NCBI RefSeq assembly: GCF_020921035.1
Contig: NC_063151.1
Span: 33,176,934-33,240,933 of the forward strand
Direction of reading: 5' to 3'
Origin: Rhodamnia argentea
Taxonomy: Eukaryota > Streptophyta > Magnoliopsida > Myrtales > Myrtaceae
DNA: 64,000 nucleotides
Positions 19,538 through 39,765 of the stretch are shown here, in pieces. The translations under genes and the position numbers were made by a program. Every line of letters starts with the position of its first letter. Position 1 is the first letter of the stretch. The notes below the pieces were generated by a model. It was not told where the DNA came from and did no database searches. It saw nothing but the letters and a program-made list of their open reading frames with translations.

Positions 19538-20444
19538 CTAGAAATTTTTTCGCCCATCATATGTTTGCCCAAATTGCCATCGAGTAGGCGCCACATTGTC
19601 AAATTCTAATGTGGCCCCATCACTTAAGGTGACTTGAAACGACAAATTTTGCCCAATCAAAACAATTCCAGTCCGCCAATTTTGCCCCCCGATTCGAGTC
19701 ATAGCAATCCATTGAGTGTTCGAGCCCTTGATTTTCACTGTGTTCACGTCTCCAGCGGCGCCGACGTTATAAATTAACACGAGGGTCCAAGACGGGTTTC
19801 CCTTAATCTCGAATTTGACTCCTCCTTGCTTGGAACACAAGACGCGGCGATAGCGGACGGGAATGATTCCGGCCTTATAGTAGGCAATCTTTGTGAACAT
19901 TAGCATAGAAAGGTCAAAGTGCTTTAGCGGAGGATTGCACCGGGCGTCCGGTTTGTACGGAGTGTAGTTCGGAGGGCAGAAGTTTGTTGCAGTAATTATG
20001 ATCGAACCAGCCTTCGGGATGCACCACTGCGGGTTGTTGTTACAATAGATCTCGAAACAGGCGCCGCAACTAAGCCCGTCGTTGAAAAGGGCTGTGCTCG
20101 GCGCCGCTGTCGCTAGTCCATATCCTTGTTTGAAAATATCTCCATATCCACAAGCTCCCTCTGCAAGTAATAAACACGAAAGAGAAACATGTCAACAATC
20201 ACTAGGGACATCAAATAGCCTAATTATCCATCTATATATGGTCCTCCCAAAGGAATACAAGAAGGTAATAAGATTAGGACAAGGCTCTTCTTTCTCTCTC
20301 CTTGCCAAGAGATTTTCACTTACGCATGGTTTCCGCACCACTCATGTCGCCGTAAAAAGTTGCATGCGCATCGTACCAACCACTGTCTATGGCAGAAACC
20401 GCCATGGCCATAGCCAACACGAGGAAAACCCCGTAAACAGCCAT
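19538..20444 (-). CDS. Alpha-expansin, array copy 1
   Basis: Two exons, 20444-20324 and 20160-19538, with a canonical GTAAGT donor and TTGCAG acceptor. The product is 247 residues. A signal peptide (about 1-18, [17 protein letters not shown]) is followed by the expansin N-terminal motif [10 protein letters not shown]. The double-psi barrel domain has conserved cysteines ([24 protein letters not shown]) and the HFDLSM motif (HFD at 121-123). The C-terminal CBM63 domain ends [13 protein letters not shown]. Expansins act in the wall, loosening cellulose-xyloglucan contacts without hydrolysis. The block [14 protein letters not shown] and the YRRVLC motif resemble the divergent Arabidopsis EXPA21-26 group more than typical EXPAs. 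The frame is intact, but a copia element lies only about 120 bases upstream of the start. Confidence 0.92.
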
Positions 20445-20524
20445 GGCAAAGAGAGATAAAGAGCATGAAATGTTGAAATAAGCTAAAGAAGTAGTGCATG
20501 AAAAAAATGTAGAGATGGCCAATG

Positions 20525-20531
20525 ATTTATA
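20525..20531 (-). promoter_or_regulatory. TATA box of expansin copy 1
   Basis: On the minus strand GTATAAATC, about 80 bases before the ATG. The same box lies at the same distance upstream of the other three array genes. Here a retrotransposon LTR begins only some 30 bases further upstream. Confidence 0.65.
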
Positions 20532-20562
20532 CTCGTCACATTCACCCAATTTTGGTTTTGTA

Positions 20563-23500
20563 TATTGGAGAAAGTATTTCTCAACAGCAAAGCAATTTTA
20601 AAGATTGGTCTCAATCGGATCAAGACCAGCCAAGCAATTCCGATACTCATGGCAAGTGCAGCGCGAGTTTTCAAAGTTGACCAATACTTTTCCTTCTTTG
20701 TATATGGGATTTTATTTTTCTATGTATAAAAGTCATAACTTAGGATAGATATTGTATTACATTTATTCTAGCTGATATCTTTCCATAAAAAATTAGCTAT
20801 CATGTACTTTAAATACTTGTAAAAAATAAAGTAATATCTCGTCCAATTCTTACATGGTATCGAGCCTCCTTGCTCACAAGCATATTGTTCATTTTTTTTC
20901 AATGGCAGAAGGATCCTCAAACACTCATACGATAGTCACCGGCCCTTCTTCAAATAACTCCACCATGCTTGTATCGATCAATGCAGCTGTGCAACTACCT
21001 TTCAAGTTAACTTCGATAAATTATCTGTCCTGGTTGGCTCAATTTAATTCTCTGCTCTTGGGCTACGATTTAATGGGGTACGAGATGGAACGCTATTGTA
21101 TCCATCTAGCACCATAATTACCGATGGAAAAGCTACTGTTAATCCATCTTATTCTCATTGGGTACGCCAAGATCAACTATTGCTTCATGCAATCATAACT
21201 TCCACTTCAGACTCAATCGTTCCTCTCATTACCTCTGCCAAAACAGCACACGAGGCATGGAACAAACTCTCGTATCTCTTTGCTAACGGGACACGTTCGC
21301 GTGTTATGTTCTCAAGGAGCGCTTAATGCTCACAAAATGTGATACTTGATCAATAGCTGAGTATTTTGCAAGTTGTCAAAGGTATTGCCAATGAACTTGC
21401 TATCATCAATTCTCCCATTAGTGATGATGATTTAATAATACACGTTCTAAACAGGCTTGGCTCTGAATTCAAGAAAATTTATGTTGCCATTAGAGCATGT
21501 GAATCACCTATTTCCTTCGAGGAACTCCATGATAAACTTGCCGATTTCGAGCAATATCTAAAAAGGGAAGAGAGTCGGGGTGAATCGACTATTATCACTG
21601 CAAATTTTTCCAAGAGAGGTTCTTACAGGAACACCAACCAGAGCCATATTTCGAATCGAGGTTCGAATTCCTACCCGTTTACGCGACAACCTCATTGGAA
21701 AAGGAGAAACAATTATGATCATAACCATCCCATTTAAAAAGCACAAGTTAGGTGCCAATTATGTGAACGAGTAGGTCACTTAGCCAAGCAATGCTATCGG
21801 GCCAAACAATATTTCTCCTCTCCTACTACAAATAGCACAGTGTTATCTTGCCAAGCCAAAGAAGGATGGCTCATGGATTCTGGAGCATCTCATCACGTCA
21901 CTTCAAGCCTGGAAAATCTCTCTTTGCATTCCAATTATGAAGGCGCGGATGAAATCGTTGTTGGTGATGGCTCGGGTTTGCAAATAACACACACAGATTC
22001 AACTAAACTTTCCTCCTCCATTGCTTCTATTCATTATCGGATGTTCTATGTATTCCCGATATTAGTAAAAACCTGATATCTATTTCAAAGTTTTGCAAGA
22101 CTAACCAAACGTTCGTGGAATTTTTTCCCGACCATTTTTTGGTGAAGGATTCGCCCACGAGGGTGATTCTCACACAAGGCCCGAATAACGGTGATGTCTA
22201 TGAACTTCCATCTTCCCTCCATGTGACTCATACACTACCCTCAACTATGATTGGTGTTCATGTATCCTCTAGTGATTAGCATCGACGTCTTGGCCATCCC
22301 TCTCATTAGATCTATCCCTCTCATTAGATCTTAAAGTTTCTTTTCAAGTCAAAGTCAATTCTTTCTCTTTCCAAGTCTTGTTCTAGATTTTTGTGTGAGT
22401 CGTGTCAATGTAATAAAAGTCATAAACTTCCGTTTGGTGATTCTACATTGTCTAACCGACGACCTCTTGATCTCATTTACACTAACGTCCGAGGTCTCGC
22501 TCTAGTGAAATCAATAGATGGCTTCTCGTATTATGTTATTTTCGTGGATCATTATATCAAATATATCCGGCTATACCCAATCAAATAGAAATTCGAAATT
22601 TTCTCTCTATTTCCAAAATTCAAGAAGTTTGTGGAAAATTACTTTCAAAATCCCATTGTATCAATTTATTCGGATGGTGGAGGAGAGTATAAAAAATTAA
22701 AAGGATTTTTCTTATCTCATGGGATTACACATTTACAAACACCTCCCCATACACCCTAACACAATGAGATTGCTGAGCGTCGTAGGCATGTTGTTGAAAC
22801 TAGTCTCACACTGCTTCATCAAGCGTCTCTTCCATCTTCATTTTGGTCTCACGTTTTCCAAGCCACAACATTTCTTATAAATTGTCTGCCTATACAGGTC
22901 TTAGGACTCAAAAATCATTTTAAGTCTCTATTCAACTCATGTCCAAATTACTCGAAACTTCGCGTTTTTGGTTTTTTGTGTTATCCTTAGCTTAAACCAT
23001 ATGCAAAACACAAACTTGAAAATCGATTGAAACCTTGTATCTTTCTTGGTTACTCTCTTAATCAAAGTGCTTACAAGTGTTATGATCCTTAGCAAAACAA
23101 AGTTTTTGTCTCACGTCATGTGGTTTTTGATGAGTTCATTTTTCCTTTCTCCAAACAAGCTAAATCGCTCCATCATACCAATTCTCAATCCCCGTCTCTA
23201 CCATCTCAAATTATCCATGCACCCTCTCATTTTTTAATAGAAAATTCAGCCACCTCTTCCAACACTAGACAACTAAATCAGCCAATACATAATCAATAAG
23301 GTCCTTCGAGTTCAATGATTGGAGAAGTTCTAGATCAACATTCGAATGGCCTCACAAATTTGATGGAAAATACCAATTTAACGTCCCCGAGCGCAGATCC
23401 ATCATCGGTTGCTGAAGCTCCATCTGTGCCTCCCGTAGATTCAAACACTTCATTTGGCCCCTCAAACACAATTCCACCAATGCCCACACGTTCACATCCG

Positions 23501-25418
23501 ATGATCACTCGATCTCGGAATAATATTTATAAGCCCAAACAAATACATTCAGCCTCCAAACATTATCTACCTCCGTCACTTGAACCAACGTGTGTTTCCC
23601 AGGTCTTAAAAGATCCAAAGTAGCACGCTGCTATGTCGGAGGAATTTAATGCAATTCTCCAAAATGGTACCTGGCAACTTGTTGCACCCGAGCCTCATCA
23701 TAATATTATTGGCTGCAAGTAGATATTCCGAATCAAGTGAAACTCAAATGGTAGCATAACTCAATATAAGGCACGATTTGTTGCTAAGGGATTCTACCAA
23801 CGGCCAGGACTTGATTATGGTCACACGTTTAGTCTAGTTGTTAAACCCACCACAATACGGGTCGTTCTTTATCTAGAATTATCCAACAGTTGGCCCCTTC
23901 TACAGTTGGATGTCAATAATGCCTTCTTACATGGCACACTTATGGAGGAAGTCTATATGCAACAACCACTAGGATTTGTCGTTCAATCACATCCTAATCA
24001 CATATGTCAATTGAAGAATGCTATTTACGTTTTTAAACAAGCTTCCCGTGCGTGGTATCAAGCACTCGGTTCCTTTGTTATCTCGTTTGGATTCATGCAA
24101 TCCAAATTAAATTCATCACTCTTTATATACAAATATGATGGCATCATTGCTTATTTCTTGGTTTATGTAGATGATCTAATCCCGATAAGAAATGATGCAA
24201 TTTTTTTTCAAAAGTTCGTCAGTGCTCTTGCGGGTAAATTTTCATTAAAGGATTTAGGAGATCTACATTACTTTTTGGGAGTTGAGGTGATCCACACAAA
24301 GTTTGGTCTCTTTCTCACACAACATAAATACATAAGGGACATTCTTGATCAAGCAAACATGTTAGGAGCCAAGGAGATTACCACCCCAATGGCTACCGGG
24401 AGCTCTCTCACTATTGTTGATGGATCACCTCATACAGATGCAACTAAATATAGAAAGATCGTTGGTTCTCTTCAATATCTTGCATTTACAAGGCCCGATA
24501 TTGCTTTTATCTTCAACAAACTCTCTCGCTTTATGCATCAACCAACAGAGTTGCATTGGAGTGCTATTAAACGTGTTTTACGTTATCCGAAATGGACTAT
24601 AAATCTGGGCTTACACTTGCAAAGTAGTCCCTCTCCATCTCTCTATGCCTTCTACGATGCTAATTGGGCAGGCAATCGGGATGATCATAAGTCTACAACC
24701 ACATACATAGTTTATATTGGCAATAATCCTATATCATGGTGCTCTCGAAAGCAAAGATCCGTTGCTCGTTCCTCAACCGAAGCCGAGTATCGTGCGGTTG
24801 CTGGGACAGCATCTGAGCTCACATGGATTCAATATCTACTGCATGAACTTGGAGTATCTTCTTCGACCACACCTAACATCTATTACGATAATATAAATGC
24901 TATGTATGTGTGCGCCAATCCTATTTTTCACTCCAAGATGAAACACATTGCCATTGATTACCACTTTGTTCACGACATGGTTAACAACGGTATGTTACGT
25001 GTGGGTCACATTTCTACCCATGATCAACTCGTAGATGCACTAACAAAACCTCTTGCACGACAACGGTTTACTCATTTACGGTCCAAGATCGGCATTTGCG
25101 ATGGAACGCCTCTCTTGCGGGGGCGTATTGGAGAAAGTATATCTCAACAGCAAAGTAATTTTAAAGATTGCTCTCAATCGGATCAAGATCAGCCAAGCAA
25201 TTCCGATACTCATGGGAAGTGCAGCGAGAGTTTCCAAAATTGATAAATACTTTTCATTCTTTGTATAGGATTTTATTTTTCTATGTATAAAAGTCATAGT
25301 TGAGGATAGATATTGTATTACATTTATTCTAGCTGATATCTTTCCATAAAGAATTAGCTATCATGTACTTTAAATACTTGTAAGAAATAAAGTAATATCA
25401 TCTCATCCAATTCTTACA
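20563..25418 (+). mobile_element. Fossil Ty1/copia LTR retrotransposon
   Basis: LTRs lie at 20563-20854 and 25126-25418. Both begin TATTGGAGAAAGTA and end TTCTTACA. They differ at roughly 17 positions plus two small gaps (about 6%), suggesting an insertion a few million years old. TTGTA and TTGTG flank it, a near-match 5-bp duplication. A primer-binding-like 'tggtatcgagcc' follows the 5' LTR, and a G-rich polypurine tract precedes the 3' LTR. Parts in order: gag-like region (about 20.9-21.75 kb), protease (MDSGASHH), integrase (about 22.3-23.1 kb), reverse transcriptase (YVDDLI) and RNase H (SSTEAEYRA) to about 25.1 kb. The domain order, integrase before RT, is copia. It is broken, with several interruptions in the coding region, the second half being the better preserved. 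It sits in the upstream region of expansin copy 1. Confidence 0.92.
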
Positions 25419-25903
25419 TTGTGGACTTCAAAAGGTATCCGAGACAAAAATTGCCAAAGATGGTTTATATGGAAAGGTTACAAGTACGGCCGGAGACTAG
25501 ACATGGATTATAAGGAAAGATAAAGGTTAGGATAAAACTGGACACAAATTACATGAGGGACAGTGATATAAATGGTAATACAAAGAGATATCGATATGAT
25601 GTAATTCAATTCTCGTATCGGCTGTTCACAGAGTTCGGTCAGGAAAAATCATGCCATACTTCAGCCAAGATTTGGTTTGTCGAAACCCTAGATAGGTTTT
25701 ATAGCTTTCGCAATTATTAGCACGGGTTGAAGATGAGAATGTTGCCACCTAATTAGTTAAACCTTCCGAAGAATTGAGGAACCATTTTCAAGCGTGGACA
25801 TTTTTCTATAAGAGAACATCCGTACAAATAAAACCTTCTCAAAATTTGTAATATGCTTGGTTTGCCGAAACTCTAGATAGAGTTTGCAGCTTTCGTCGTT
25901 AAG
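25419..25903. repeat. Displaced upstream region of expansin copy 1
   Basis: Starts 'ttgtggacttcaaaagg' and continues with 'gagacaaaaattgccaaaga'. This is the sequence found directly upstream of copies 2, 3 and 4 (30469, 36360 and 38987 onwards). It was therefore contiguous with 20562 before the copia insertion. From about 25660 it contains the ~180-bp upstream module (phrases 'ggtttgtcgaaaccctagat' and 'gttgccacctaatt'). Confidence 0.75.
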
Positions 25904-27417
25904 GGAAAATTGCCCAAAAAGTCCTAAACCTATTGTACATGTACCAATTTAGTTTTAAATATTTTAACAATTTGCCAATTTGTTCCTAACTCTTTCAATT
26001 GTGTCGTTTTAGTCCTCAACATTTTGACATTTTGCCAATTTAATCCTAAAACTTTTGACGATTTGATAATTTAGTTCTTCCGGCCAAGTCTTCTTAGAAA
26101 CCACTAACGCTCGTCAATGCCGGCCATCCTACATGGCATAGCAGACGACAAGCGGATTTCTACAATCATTTTAATTTTTCAATTTTTCTTGGATTTATTT
26201 TATTTTCTTTTCCTTTTTAAGAAAAGAAAGAAAAGAAAGAAATGAGACAATTCATAATTTTTTTAAAAATAAGAAATTCCAAAAATTATGAGCGTAAGCA
26301 CTAACCGCATCGCGTAAGACTAGGGGTAAGCATGGTTCTAGGGTAAAACCGGGAACCGCAGAATCGAACCCATGGTTCCTGGTCCGGTTTCGAGTTCTAG
26401 TAAACCGGGGTCCGGTTCTCGGTTCCACATTTTGAGGAAAACCCTCTCGGTTCTCTATGGAACGAACCGGAACCAAAACTGGAACCGTCACTTTCAAACC
26501 CTAACTTAGGCTTTCTATTTCCACTTTCTATTCTTCTCACTTCTTCCTCTGAAACCTCAACGCTGCATGCCCGTCATTGTTTCACGTTTTTTGCTTGCTT
26601 CCATTCTGGGCTTGTTATTAAGTTTCATGACAAAGACTACCATTACTCTTAAGGAGGAATCAATGCAGTTATACCTCTCTGTTCTCCTTTTTGGGCTGGT
26701 TATTTGGTGCATCCCATGTTTGCATTGGACTTAAAAGTAAAAGAAAAAGCAGAAATGACACCACACGAGTTCAGCGGCATTAAATGCTATGTGCTTTTAT
26801 ATTGAGATTATCGTTCTTGTTTTCTGCAGAGTTGTTTGCTTTTGGTGATCTTCGGGGTAGCCCTTCTTATTGTGGAACTGGCGGTTGCAGCTTAAGCGGA
26901 AGAATTTTATCAAGCACCATTAATGGAGAATGCTTGTCTGAGTGTTAGTCTATATGAATGTCTTCTTTTTTTATGCAATCGGAGTTTATATTGGCAGGTT
27001 CTCGGGTACCTTAGAACCAACCCTAGAACCCGTGACGGGATAAGTTCCAAGTTTCACAGTATGCATGGTAGGCTCTAAATTCCAAAAAACGATAAACTTG
27101 TTCTAGCAAGTAGGTTCCAAGTTCTACCCGGAATCGCTTGCCCCTACATAGGACGACCAACACTTATTAAATCGCCACGTCAATGATTTTTCGGCCAAAA
27201 TCGCCACGTAAGGACTAAATTGGCAAATCATAAAAAAGTTTAGAATTAAATTGGCATAATTAAATGATTCGGGACTTAATTGGCACATTGTTAGAAAAGG
27301 TTTAGGACTGGATTGGGCAAATCGATAGATTCATGACTAAATTGGGCAAATTGAAATATTTATGACCGAATTGGCATATGTACAATAAGTTTAGGACTTT
27401 CTCGGGAATTTCTTCCC
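25904..27417. mobile_element. Mutator-like MITE interrupted by another element
   Basis: The left arm begins GGAAAATTGCCCAAAAAGTC and the right arm ends with its approximate complement near 27380-27417. Arms of 'tttaggactgaattgg' repeats flank the centre, and the hAT-like element at 26321-27146 lies inside. The left flank 'ttaag' corresponds to the site used by the copy at 36807. A clean duplication on the right is not visible. Confidence 0.6.
26321..27146. mobile_element. hAT-like non-autonomous element, 826 bp
   Basis: The left end TAGGGGTAAGCATGGTTC pairs with the right end, read on the other strand as TAGGGGCAAGCGATTCC. Both ends are rich in 'accgg' and 'ggttc' repeats, as in many plant hAT elements. 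The flanking octamers CGTAAGAC and CATAGGAC match at 6 of 8 positions, the 8-bp target duplication size expected for hAT. No transposase is recognised in the interior. Confidence 0.6.
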
Positions 27418-29454: not shown

Positions 29455-30360
29455 CTAGAAATTCTTTTGCCCATCATATGTCTGCCCAAATTGCCACCCA
29501 GCAGGTGCCACATTGTCCAATTCCAATGTCTTCCCATCACTTACGGTGACTTGAAACGACAAGCTTTGCCCCGTCAAAACAGTTCCGGTCTGCCACTTTT
29601 GCCCCTGGTTGCGAGTCATGGCAATCCATTGAGTGTTCGAGCCCTTGATCTTCACGGCGTTCACGTCTCCGGCGCCGCCTACGTTAAAAATTAGCACGAG
29701 GGTGAAGTGCGGATTTCCCGCAATCTCGAACTTGACTCCTCCTCTTTTGGAACACAAGACGCGGCGATAGCGGACGGGGATGACTCCGGCCTTATAGTAC
29801 GCGATCTTCGTGAACATTGGCATAGAAAGGTCGAAATGCTTTTGCGGAGGGTTGCACCGGATGTCCTGCGTCTTAGTGTAGTTCGGAGGGCAAAAGTTTG
29901 TCCCGGTGATTATGATCGAGCCGGCCTTCGGAATGCACCACTTCGGGTCGTTGTTGCAAAAGATCTCGAAGCGGGCACCACAAGTAAGTCCGTTGTTGAA
30001 AAGGGCCGTGCTCGGCGCCGCCGTCGCTAGTCCATACCCTTGTTTGAAAAGGTCTCCGTATCCGCAAGCTCCGTCCGCAAGTAACGAACACACAAGAGAA
30101 ACATGTCAACAATCATTAGGGACATCAAATAGACTAATTTTCCATCCGTGTATGGTCCTCACAAAGGAATACAAGAAGGGACACTAAGATTAAGGCAAGG
30201 CTCTTCTTTCTCTCTCCTTGCCAAGAGATTTTTACTTACTCATGGTCTCTTTACCACTCATGTCCCCGTAGAAAGTTGCGCGCGCATCGTACCAATTACC
30301 GTCTATAGCAGAAACAACCATGGACATAGCCAATATGAGAAAAACCTTGCAAATGACCAT
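29455..30360 (-). CDS. Alpha-expansin, array copy 2, with altered splice acceptor
   Basis: Two exons, 30360-30240 and about 30074-29455, giving about 246 residues. Signal peptide [18 protein letters not shown], then [14 protein letters not shown]. The barrel domain has [19 protein letters not shown] (one conserved Cys changed to Arg) and HFDLSM. The CBM63 domain ends [13 protein letters not shown]. The donor is GTAAGT. The acceptor reads TTGCGG where the other complete copies have TTGCAG, so the AG is lost. An AG six bases into the exon could serve and would remove two residues in frame. Apart from this the frame is open. The function is the same as copy 1 if splicing succeeds. Confidence 0.85.
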
Positions 30361-30429: not shown

Positions 30430-30468
30430 CTCGTCACCTTTGCACAATTTTGGTATTATGGAATTCAA

Positions 30469-36354: not shown

Positions 36355-36806
36355 GTTATGGACTTCAAAAGGAAACCGAGACAAAAATTGCCAAAGATGG
36401 ATTATACAGAAAGCTAAACCCGGGACAAAACTGGACACAAATTATGTCTAGCTGAATGGCACGGATATAATTGGTAATACAAGAGGGTATCAGTAGTGGC
36501 TGTTCACACAGTTTGGCAAGTACAGGAAAAAATCATGCAATACTCCTGGAAAGTGTGGTTTGTCGAAACCCTAGACAGGGTTTACAACTTTCGTGATTAA
36601 CTGTGTGCTATGGTAGCACAGGTTGAAGATGAGAATTTTGCCACCTAATTGATTAAACCTTCTGAAAATTAAATTGAGGAACCATTCCATGTCTGAATAG
36701 TTTTCTATAAGAGAGAACATCCTTACACATTAAAACCTTCTTAAAATTCGCAATATCCTTGGTTTGTCGATATCCTAGATAAAGTTTATAGCTTTCATAA
36801 TTAAAG
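36355..36806. repeat. Upstream region of copy 3 with tandem module
   Basis: Begins 'ttatggacttcaaaagg' as upstream of copies 1 and 4. One and a half module units follow ('gtttgtcgaaaccctagac' at about 36560, 'aattcgcaatatccttgg' at about 36745). It is interrupted at 36807 by a Mutator-like MITE and resumes at 37267. Confidence 0.7.
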
Positions 36807-38956: not shown

Positions 38957-39765
38957 CTCATCACGTTTAACCAGTTTTGGCATTATGGACTTCAAAAGGT
39001 AACAGAGGCGAAAATTGTCAAAGAAGGATTATAGGGAAAGATACCGCCAGGACTAAACTGGACACAAATTTTTTCTAGCTGAGTGGCAATGAAAAAAATG
39101 GAAATAAGAGGAAAAAGTCAACAAGATGACATTTAAGTCTATTTGTTGCATTTGGCAAATTTTGGCAGTAAAAGATCATGCGATGCTCCTGCAAAGAATA
39201 TGCGAAGTAGAGAAGTGTGTGAAAATGTGTATAGTATTTATAGTACTCCCAAAATGACTATAACAAGCATTATAATATCAATTGCAGGTTAATTGGGATA
39301 TGCAAGCTTTATACACAATCATCTAGATATGGAGAATTAAAGATGATATGGAGAATCAAAGATGATATGGAGAATCTGACGTCCTGTCAAACTCAAGGTG
39401 AAGTAGAAGGAGTCAACTGCAGTTTGGAGAAAAGGTTCAAAAAATATCCAAGTGGATGTGCCTTAATGAAGATATCACCGATCGGCTCAACCAATGGTAG
39501 AGGACCGGTTTCGGTTCCGTCTACTCAAGAAAAAACTTGTGACATCTAGAATTTTTTAATTTGTTAGTAACATTTAGGATATAAGGATATAAATAATTCA
39601 CCTGGATTTTTGGATGATGTTACGAAATCTCGATGAGGTCACCAATTTTTTGACATGTGGAAATTCAATAGATATTTTTCGTGTCTGTGCTTTTTCGGAA
39701 TGCGATTTCGTTAGGGTTGCAAAATTACAAGGAGTTATAATTCAAGAAAATAGATTAAAAATGTG
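38957..39765. other. Upstream region of expansin copy 4
   Basis: 38980-39180 is the shared promoter-distal segment. 39325-39376 is a small threefold repeat of 'gatatggagaat.aaagat'. The rest is unrecognised. No gene. Confidence 0.4.

Follow-up and report, generated by a model that had tools for sequence, protein, structure and literature searches.

In white grape, the retrotransposon Gret1 lies in the promoter of VvMybA1, much as a retrotransposon lies in the promoter of an expansin gene at the locus considered here; in grape, Gret1 is described as inactivating VvMybA1, whose function returns in some sports that have lost the element (PMC6046048). In blood orange, a retroelement beside Ruby likewise alters the control of its neighbor. 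There cold is described as inducing the element and activating the gene, whereas here the orientation of the element argues against simple read-in from its LTR (PMC6046048).

In type, end structure, TSD length, primer-site start and approximate size, the element resembles TARE1 of tomato. TARE1 is described as a Copia element with LTRs starting in TA, a 5-bp TSD, a primer site that begins TGGTATC and a size of ~4.7 kb, as compared with 4.86 kb here (PMC3701649), and its ends are given as 5'-TA-CA-3' (PMC5659011). The two are likened by description, not by sequence: the TARE1 LTR is 194 bp long and that of the present element 292/293 bp, and TARE1 amplified recently, whereas the family found here consists of old divergent copies (PMC3701649).

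The event is ordinary in kind, a Copia insertion into a promoter that is comparable with Gret1 and the Ruby retroelement. Its value lies in an unusually clean design, with the insertion flush above one core promoter and three uninterrupted paralogous sites in one cluster. Such a natural promoter swap bears on how far an expansin needs its upstream region, and the same cluster bears on whether an old LTR replaces or silences upstream control. A limited search of the open-access literature brought up no clear account of a retrotransposon in an expansin promoter or of an LTR at a TATA box; one paper that it found deals with another gene family, and of those matching in part only PMC12454757 names expansin.

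The insertion and the uninterrupted sister sites

The window, that is, the whole stretch of 64,000 nucleotides analysed (C2:33176934-33240933, from a genome of 346.7 Mb), carries on its minus strand four related expansin genes, copies 1-4, which self-BLAST brings out. As in plant alpha-type expansins, DPBB_1 is combined with Expansin_C in copy 1, and the genes occur as tandem copies, including a pseudogene. The sequence KHFDLS is seen in copies 1, 2 and 4, which we tentatively assign to the alpha type on the assumption that the HFD motif marks that type. Domain profiles find both expansin domains in copy 1 (DPBB_1, 4e-21; Expansin_C, 9e-24), and the EXPB1_D1 model also matches it, weakly (1.8e-7). 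The frame of copy 1 encodes 247 aa without an internal stop, and its splice sites are intact. The gene and the element above it comprise the following features.

19538..20160, minus strand: copy 1 exon 2 and stop codon, containing Expansin_C and DPBB_1
20161..20323, minus strand: copy 1 intron, 163 bp, GT...AG
20324..20444, minus strand: copy 1 exon 1 including its start codon (20444-20442), placed by alignment
20525..20531, minus strand: copy 1 TATA box, TATAAAT, from a motif scan; common to copies 2-4 in the alignment
20546..20555, minus strand: box CCAAAATTGG, a perfect CC(A/T)6GG, on the gene side of the insertion
20558..20562, plus strand: TSD on the gene side, TTGTA
20563-25418, plus strand: Copia element, 4,856 bp, in opposite orientation to copy 1
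20563..20854, plus strand: 5' LTR, 292 bp, with TA...CA ends
20725..20731, plus strand: 5' LTR TATA box, from the TATAWAW scan, pointing away from copy 1
20855..20866, plus strand: primer binding site TGGTATCGAGCC, directly after the 5' LTR
21357..21737, plus strand: gag piece, Retrotran_gag_2, 1e-7 across the scanned part 21366-21734
22589..22756, plus strand: weak integrase-core piece, rve, E 0.032 and below cut-off, ahead of the reverse transcriptase
23741..25243, plus strand: open reverse transcriptase piece, RVT_2, 2e-37 across the scanned part 23906-25240
25126..25418, plus strand: 3' LTR, 293 bp
25419..25423, plus strand: TSD on the far side, TTGTG
25424..26003, minus strand: displaced ancestral upstream sequence of copy 1, from alignments

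The element is a Copia LTR retrotransposon, as its paired direct LTRs, TSD and Copia-type gag and RVT_2 establish. Its coding part is broken into pieces. Matches to gag (PF14223, 1e-7) and RVT_2 (PF07727, 2e-37) are both above the curated cut-off, and the reverse transcriptase frame extends into the 3' LTR. Zinc-knuckle, Pol_BBD, integrase-core and SH3-like pieces all score below the Pfam cut-off and follow one another as would be expected in Copia. An antitoxin model among these weak pieces (E 0.054) is an evident chance match and was set aside. The LTRs are 94.1% identical: over 290 sites there are 17 differences, of which 10 are transitions and 7 transversions, and two indels come in addition. 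The primer binding site TGGTATCGAGCC we take to be of the initiator-Met tRNA type. The box CCAAAATTGG is presumably CArG-like, a putative assignment; it is also perfect in copy 3 and is changed in copies 2 and 4.

The TSD is 5 bp long, its two copies agreeing at four of the five bases. On the gene side, self-BLAST matches copy 1 to copies 4, 2 and 3 at 84.7, 82.9 and 79.8% identity. On the far side, the sequence beside the element matches the same copies over 60, 58 and 70 bp (E of 3e-13, 1e-12 and 2e-17, respectively). Gene-side and far-side alignments each place the TSD on the identical five bases of every sister copy, where these bases occur once only, as CATAA on the gene strand. The uninterrupted sites, located by self-BLAST coordinates and alignments, are as follows.

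30456..30460, minus strand: uninterrupted paralogous site of copy 2
36356..36360, minus strand: uninterrupted paralogous site of copy 3, the pseudogene
38983..38987, minus strand: uninterrupted paralogous site of copy 4

The two flanks of the element, once joined, align to copy 4 with a score of 101, to copy 2 with 115 and to copy 3 with 123; the alignments to copies 3 and 4 are gapless, and that to copy 2 contains small gaps. By comparison, the gene side joined to random 60-mers of the window (1000 draws for each copy, those less than 300 bases from the sites being dropped) reaches maxima of 51, 60 and 67 over 957, 946 and 949 joins, while with the actual LTR edge the gene side gives 41, 49 and 56. 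It is thereby confirmed that a Copia element separates the copy 1 TATA box from its old upstream sequence. The initial annotation had placed the ancestral upstream region from 25419 on, beyond a 4.86-kb Copia element whose 5' LTR began ~30 bases above the TATA box, and had described the copy 1 frame as open. The segment after 25418 does align with the upstream regions of copies 2-4, the measured distance from TATA box to LTR is 31 bases, and the frame is open across a GT...AG intron. The displaced sequence has its longest match in copy 3 and shorter ones in copies 2 and 4. Self-BLAST shows that copy 4 is homologous to copy 1 for only ~215 bp above the insertion site, to 39197, and so represents the ancestral upstream DNA only in part.

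Timing of the insertion and the element family

The divergence of the two LTRs, K = 0.061 +/- 0.015, is below that between copies 1 and 4 in every region measured (leader and core, 0.219; upstream block, 0.186; intron, 0.072 +/- 0.022), which points to an insertion that postdates the expansin duplications. Because the intron value is close to that of the LTRs, it is the remaining regions, together with the uninterrupted sites, that carry the time order. With plant rates of 1.3e-8 to 2.5e-9 per site per year, the insertion would be about 2.4 to 12 million years old. A sister element at C2:30.32 Mb has an LTR to which the 5' and 3' LTRs (K of 0.057 and 0.050) are as close as they are to each other; the family was thus probably spreading at about the time of the insertion. 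Exchange between element copies could disturb a date taken from the element's own pair of LTRs.

The family is TA...CA-ended and like TARE1 by end structure. All 24 matches that align from query base 1 begin with TA (23 with TATTGGAG, one with TACTGGAG), and all 21 that align to base 292 end with CA. These counts come from 30 loci of 43 matches and are biased, since alignment ends favor matching bases and LTRs with differing ends may align from a later base. One LTR (L050) aligns from base 2 only, and a distant one (L059) appears to start with TG. A change from TG to TA within the lineage would fit the start of L059, and such a change has been proposed for the TARE1 lineage (PMC3701649).

Across eight presumed LTR pairs of the family, K ranges from 0.061 to 0.169, as for old divergent copies. 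Elsewhere in the genome, five LTRs of the family (L042, L043, L045, L055 and L038) lie within 23 kb at C10:24212771-24235408. Their flanks are alike (CGGTCCGC, CGGTCCAC and TGGTCTGC before; TCCGCGACATGTAC and TCTGTGACATGTAC after), as though local duplication had multiplied a single insertion.

Possible fates of copy 1 and its promoter

Taken together, the data show that a Copia element of the TA...CA-ended family inserted in opposite orientation to copy 1, 31 bp above its TATA box, duplicating 5 bp and shifting the old upstream DNA 4.86 kb away; the cluster itself had by then arisen through tandem duplication. The gene retained its intron and 5' leader as well as its TATA box, and its frame stayed open. 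We suggest that the native core promoter still drives copy 1, though expression would be reduced or otherwise changed, and that U3 of the 5' LTR, between the diverging TATA boxes at 20531 (minus strand) and 20725 (plus strand), now forms its upstream flank. A TATAWAW scan of 20445-20860 finds these two boxes, one on each strand. To this reading, in which the native core promoter remains in use with reduced or changed output and LTR U3 as upstream flank, we give a probability of about 0.52.

A more specific version of core-promoter use, which we regard as doubtful, is that U3 of the 5' LTR serves as the shared control region of a ~190-bp divergent promoter, and that this region, together with the retained core and a first intron that evolves slowly, maintains the use of copy 1 although its ancestral upstream sequence is gone. 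Between copies 1 and 4, intron sites differ less often than fourfold sites (11/162 versus 24/89, p 3e-5), as they do between copies 2 and 4 (19/164 versus 22/96, p 0.02); for copies 1 and 2 the same comparison does not reach significance (17/163 versus 18/93, p 0.06). Copies 1 and 4 thus differ at 7% of intron sites and 27% of fourfold sites. Differing base composition may be a partial cause of the low intron divergence. That the intron might encode a microRNA or a structured RNA was considered and rejected: Rfam gives no match at the gathering score in 18000-40000, and the fold z of the copy 1 intron, -1.27, indicates no unusual structure. In favor of core-promoter use in general stand the intact structure of the gene, its two expansin domains and its low number of private changes: in core, leader and intron taken together, copy 1 has the fewest, 5 in 243 sites, copies 2, 3 and 4 having 20, 14 and 11.

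The main rival to core-promoter use is silencing, in which small RNAs target the element and its methylation extends across the 31 bp to the TATA box, switching the gene off with the frame still open. This is a real possibility, though not the one we prefer. In Arabidopsis euchromatin, methylation is reported to extend ~200 bp past the siRNA target sites of elements, a spread well inside which a distance of 31 bp would fall, and the average expression of genes near transposable elements is reported to be lower (PMC3567156). The private changes of copy 1 in exon 2 also have a deamination-like lean. There, C>T/G>A changes stand to the reverse as 19:4 in copy 1, 26:6 in copy 3 and 17:19 in copies 2 and 4 combined, a lean relative to the latter with p 0.007 for copy 1 and 0.005 for copy 3, under a split at exon 2 that was chosen after looking. 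Against silencing, the lean is absent from exon 1 (none of seven private changes), which is nearer the LTR. With exon 1 added, it is not significant for copy 1 (p 0.23; p 0.16 over the whole gene), whereas that of copy 3 stays (p 0.01). Because the deamination argument is post hoc and the lean uneven along the gene, it was rejected as a demonstration of silencing.

The contrast between the exons is itself curious: C>T/G>A makes up 19 of the 29 private changes in copy 1 exon 2 (19538-20160), and all seven in exon 1 (20324-20444) are opposite. Gene conversion or wrong polarity is perhaps behind it.

It is also conceivable, though unlikely, that copy 1 is recently dead and undecayed, having been free of constraint since the insertion and intact by luck. 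The dN/dS ratios of the copy 1, 2 and 4 branches are 0.235, 0.458 and 0.191, and omega = 1 along the whole copy 1 branch is rejected (2dlnL 19.9). The neutral length of that branch, however, is ~0.22 per site, of which ~0.031, or ~14%, follows the insertion, so that the copy 1 ratio mostly reflects earlier time. When the branch is split, omega = 1 after the insertion gives a lnL of -1678.37 and unchanged constraint -1678.23, at a cost of 0.14; when the post-insertion length is doubled to 0.06, the values are -1680.79 and -1678.23. At the measured LTR distance recent death therefore fits equally well, the codons do not decide on constraint after the insertion, and dN/dS was rejected as proof of function since then.

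In line with recent death, and counting against core-promoter use, are the long protein branch of copy 1 and its private residues where expansins are conserved, such as P125L, Y162S, G173A and N195I in copy 4 numbering (at position 162 copy 2 also departs). Conserved positions are those with at least 80% agreement in 20 to 22 other comparable expansin loci, drawn from the best 30 of 44 matches, which include three of this cluster's own; departures from the commonest residue number 15 in copy 1, 14 in copy 2 and 8 in copy 4. In a protein tree of 23 sequences, copies 1 and 2 are sisters with support of 98, and the branches of copies 1, 2 and 4 measure 0.102, 0.122 and 0.034.

What argues against recent death is the survival of the gene, which stays intact in only 10-33% of simulated neutral histories since the insertion: 10% with the indel rate of this LTR pair, 19% with that of eight pairs pooled, and 33% with no indels. 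The pool comprises eight of nine presumed own LTR pairs, L053/L054 being excluded because its identical flanks make it look like a segmental duplicate. An earlier estimate of 2.5-9% at the measured K, based on the indels of one LTR pair, is superseded by these figures.

Simple promoter takeover, in which transcription of copy 1 begins in the LTR and reads into the gene, is very improbable. The LTR is the nearest upstream DNA, and blood orange offers, in Ruby, a documented case of a retroelement activating its neighbor (PMC6046048). Here, though, the LTR is oriented opposite to copy 1 and its only TATAWAW match in 20445-20860 points away from the gene, so the LTR is not placed for simple read-in. 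The suggestion in the initial annotation that copy 1 is driven by LTR sequence is, in its simple form, weakened accordingly. The two other outcomes offered there, silencing with the element and recent death, are compatible with the sequence, as is continued function. Finally, an assembly artefact or false join has a negligible probability: the structure is known from one assembly, but the matched LTRs, TSD, primer binding site and three paralogous sites are concordant to the base.

The shared upstream segment and the sister copies

The initial annotation had also noted a conserved segment above the TATA box in copies 2-4. The homology of this segment stands; its special conservation is doubtful. 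Over the 61 columns of the shared segment K is 0.13-0.23, and over the next 200 columns upstream, two short gappy stretches, it is 0.23-0.71. The segment is thus less diverged than its neighbor, with nominal p < 0.05 in three of six copy pairs, which are non-independent. Relative to DNA further out, where K is 0.17-0.25 among copies 1-3, it is not less diverged in any of three pairs. Since the pairs share sequences, the low divergence is a weak sign at most, and descent from one ancestor would account for most of the likeness. The segment was not accepted as proof of constraint, though it may be functional.

Copy 4 is the best-kept copy, as the departures from conserved residues, the tree branches and the damage to copy 2 together indicate; copy 1 is more diverged but structurally intact. 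The frames of copy 2 (30360-29455) and copy 4 (38888-37987) are open. Copy 2 is itself damaged, although its frame is open. The acceptor of its intron (30075-30239) has changed from AG to GG, with an in-frame AG 6 bases further on, and in exon 2 (29455-30074) a cysteine that is kept in 22 of 22 compared expansin loci has become arginine. At position 196 in copy 4 numbering, moreover, the three open copies (1, 2 and 4) lack a tryptophan that all 20 comparable expansin loci in the genome keep.

Copy 3 (36353-35314) is a pseudogene: by comparison with the other copies it has gained 8 bases at one place and lost 1 at another, and it contains stops. It has decayed though its site above the TATA box is uninterrupted, while copy 1, which bears the insertion, is intact.
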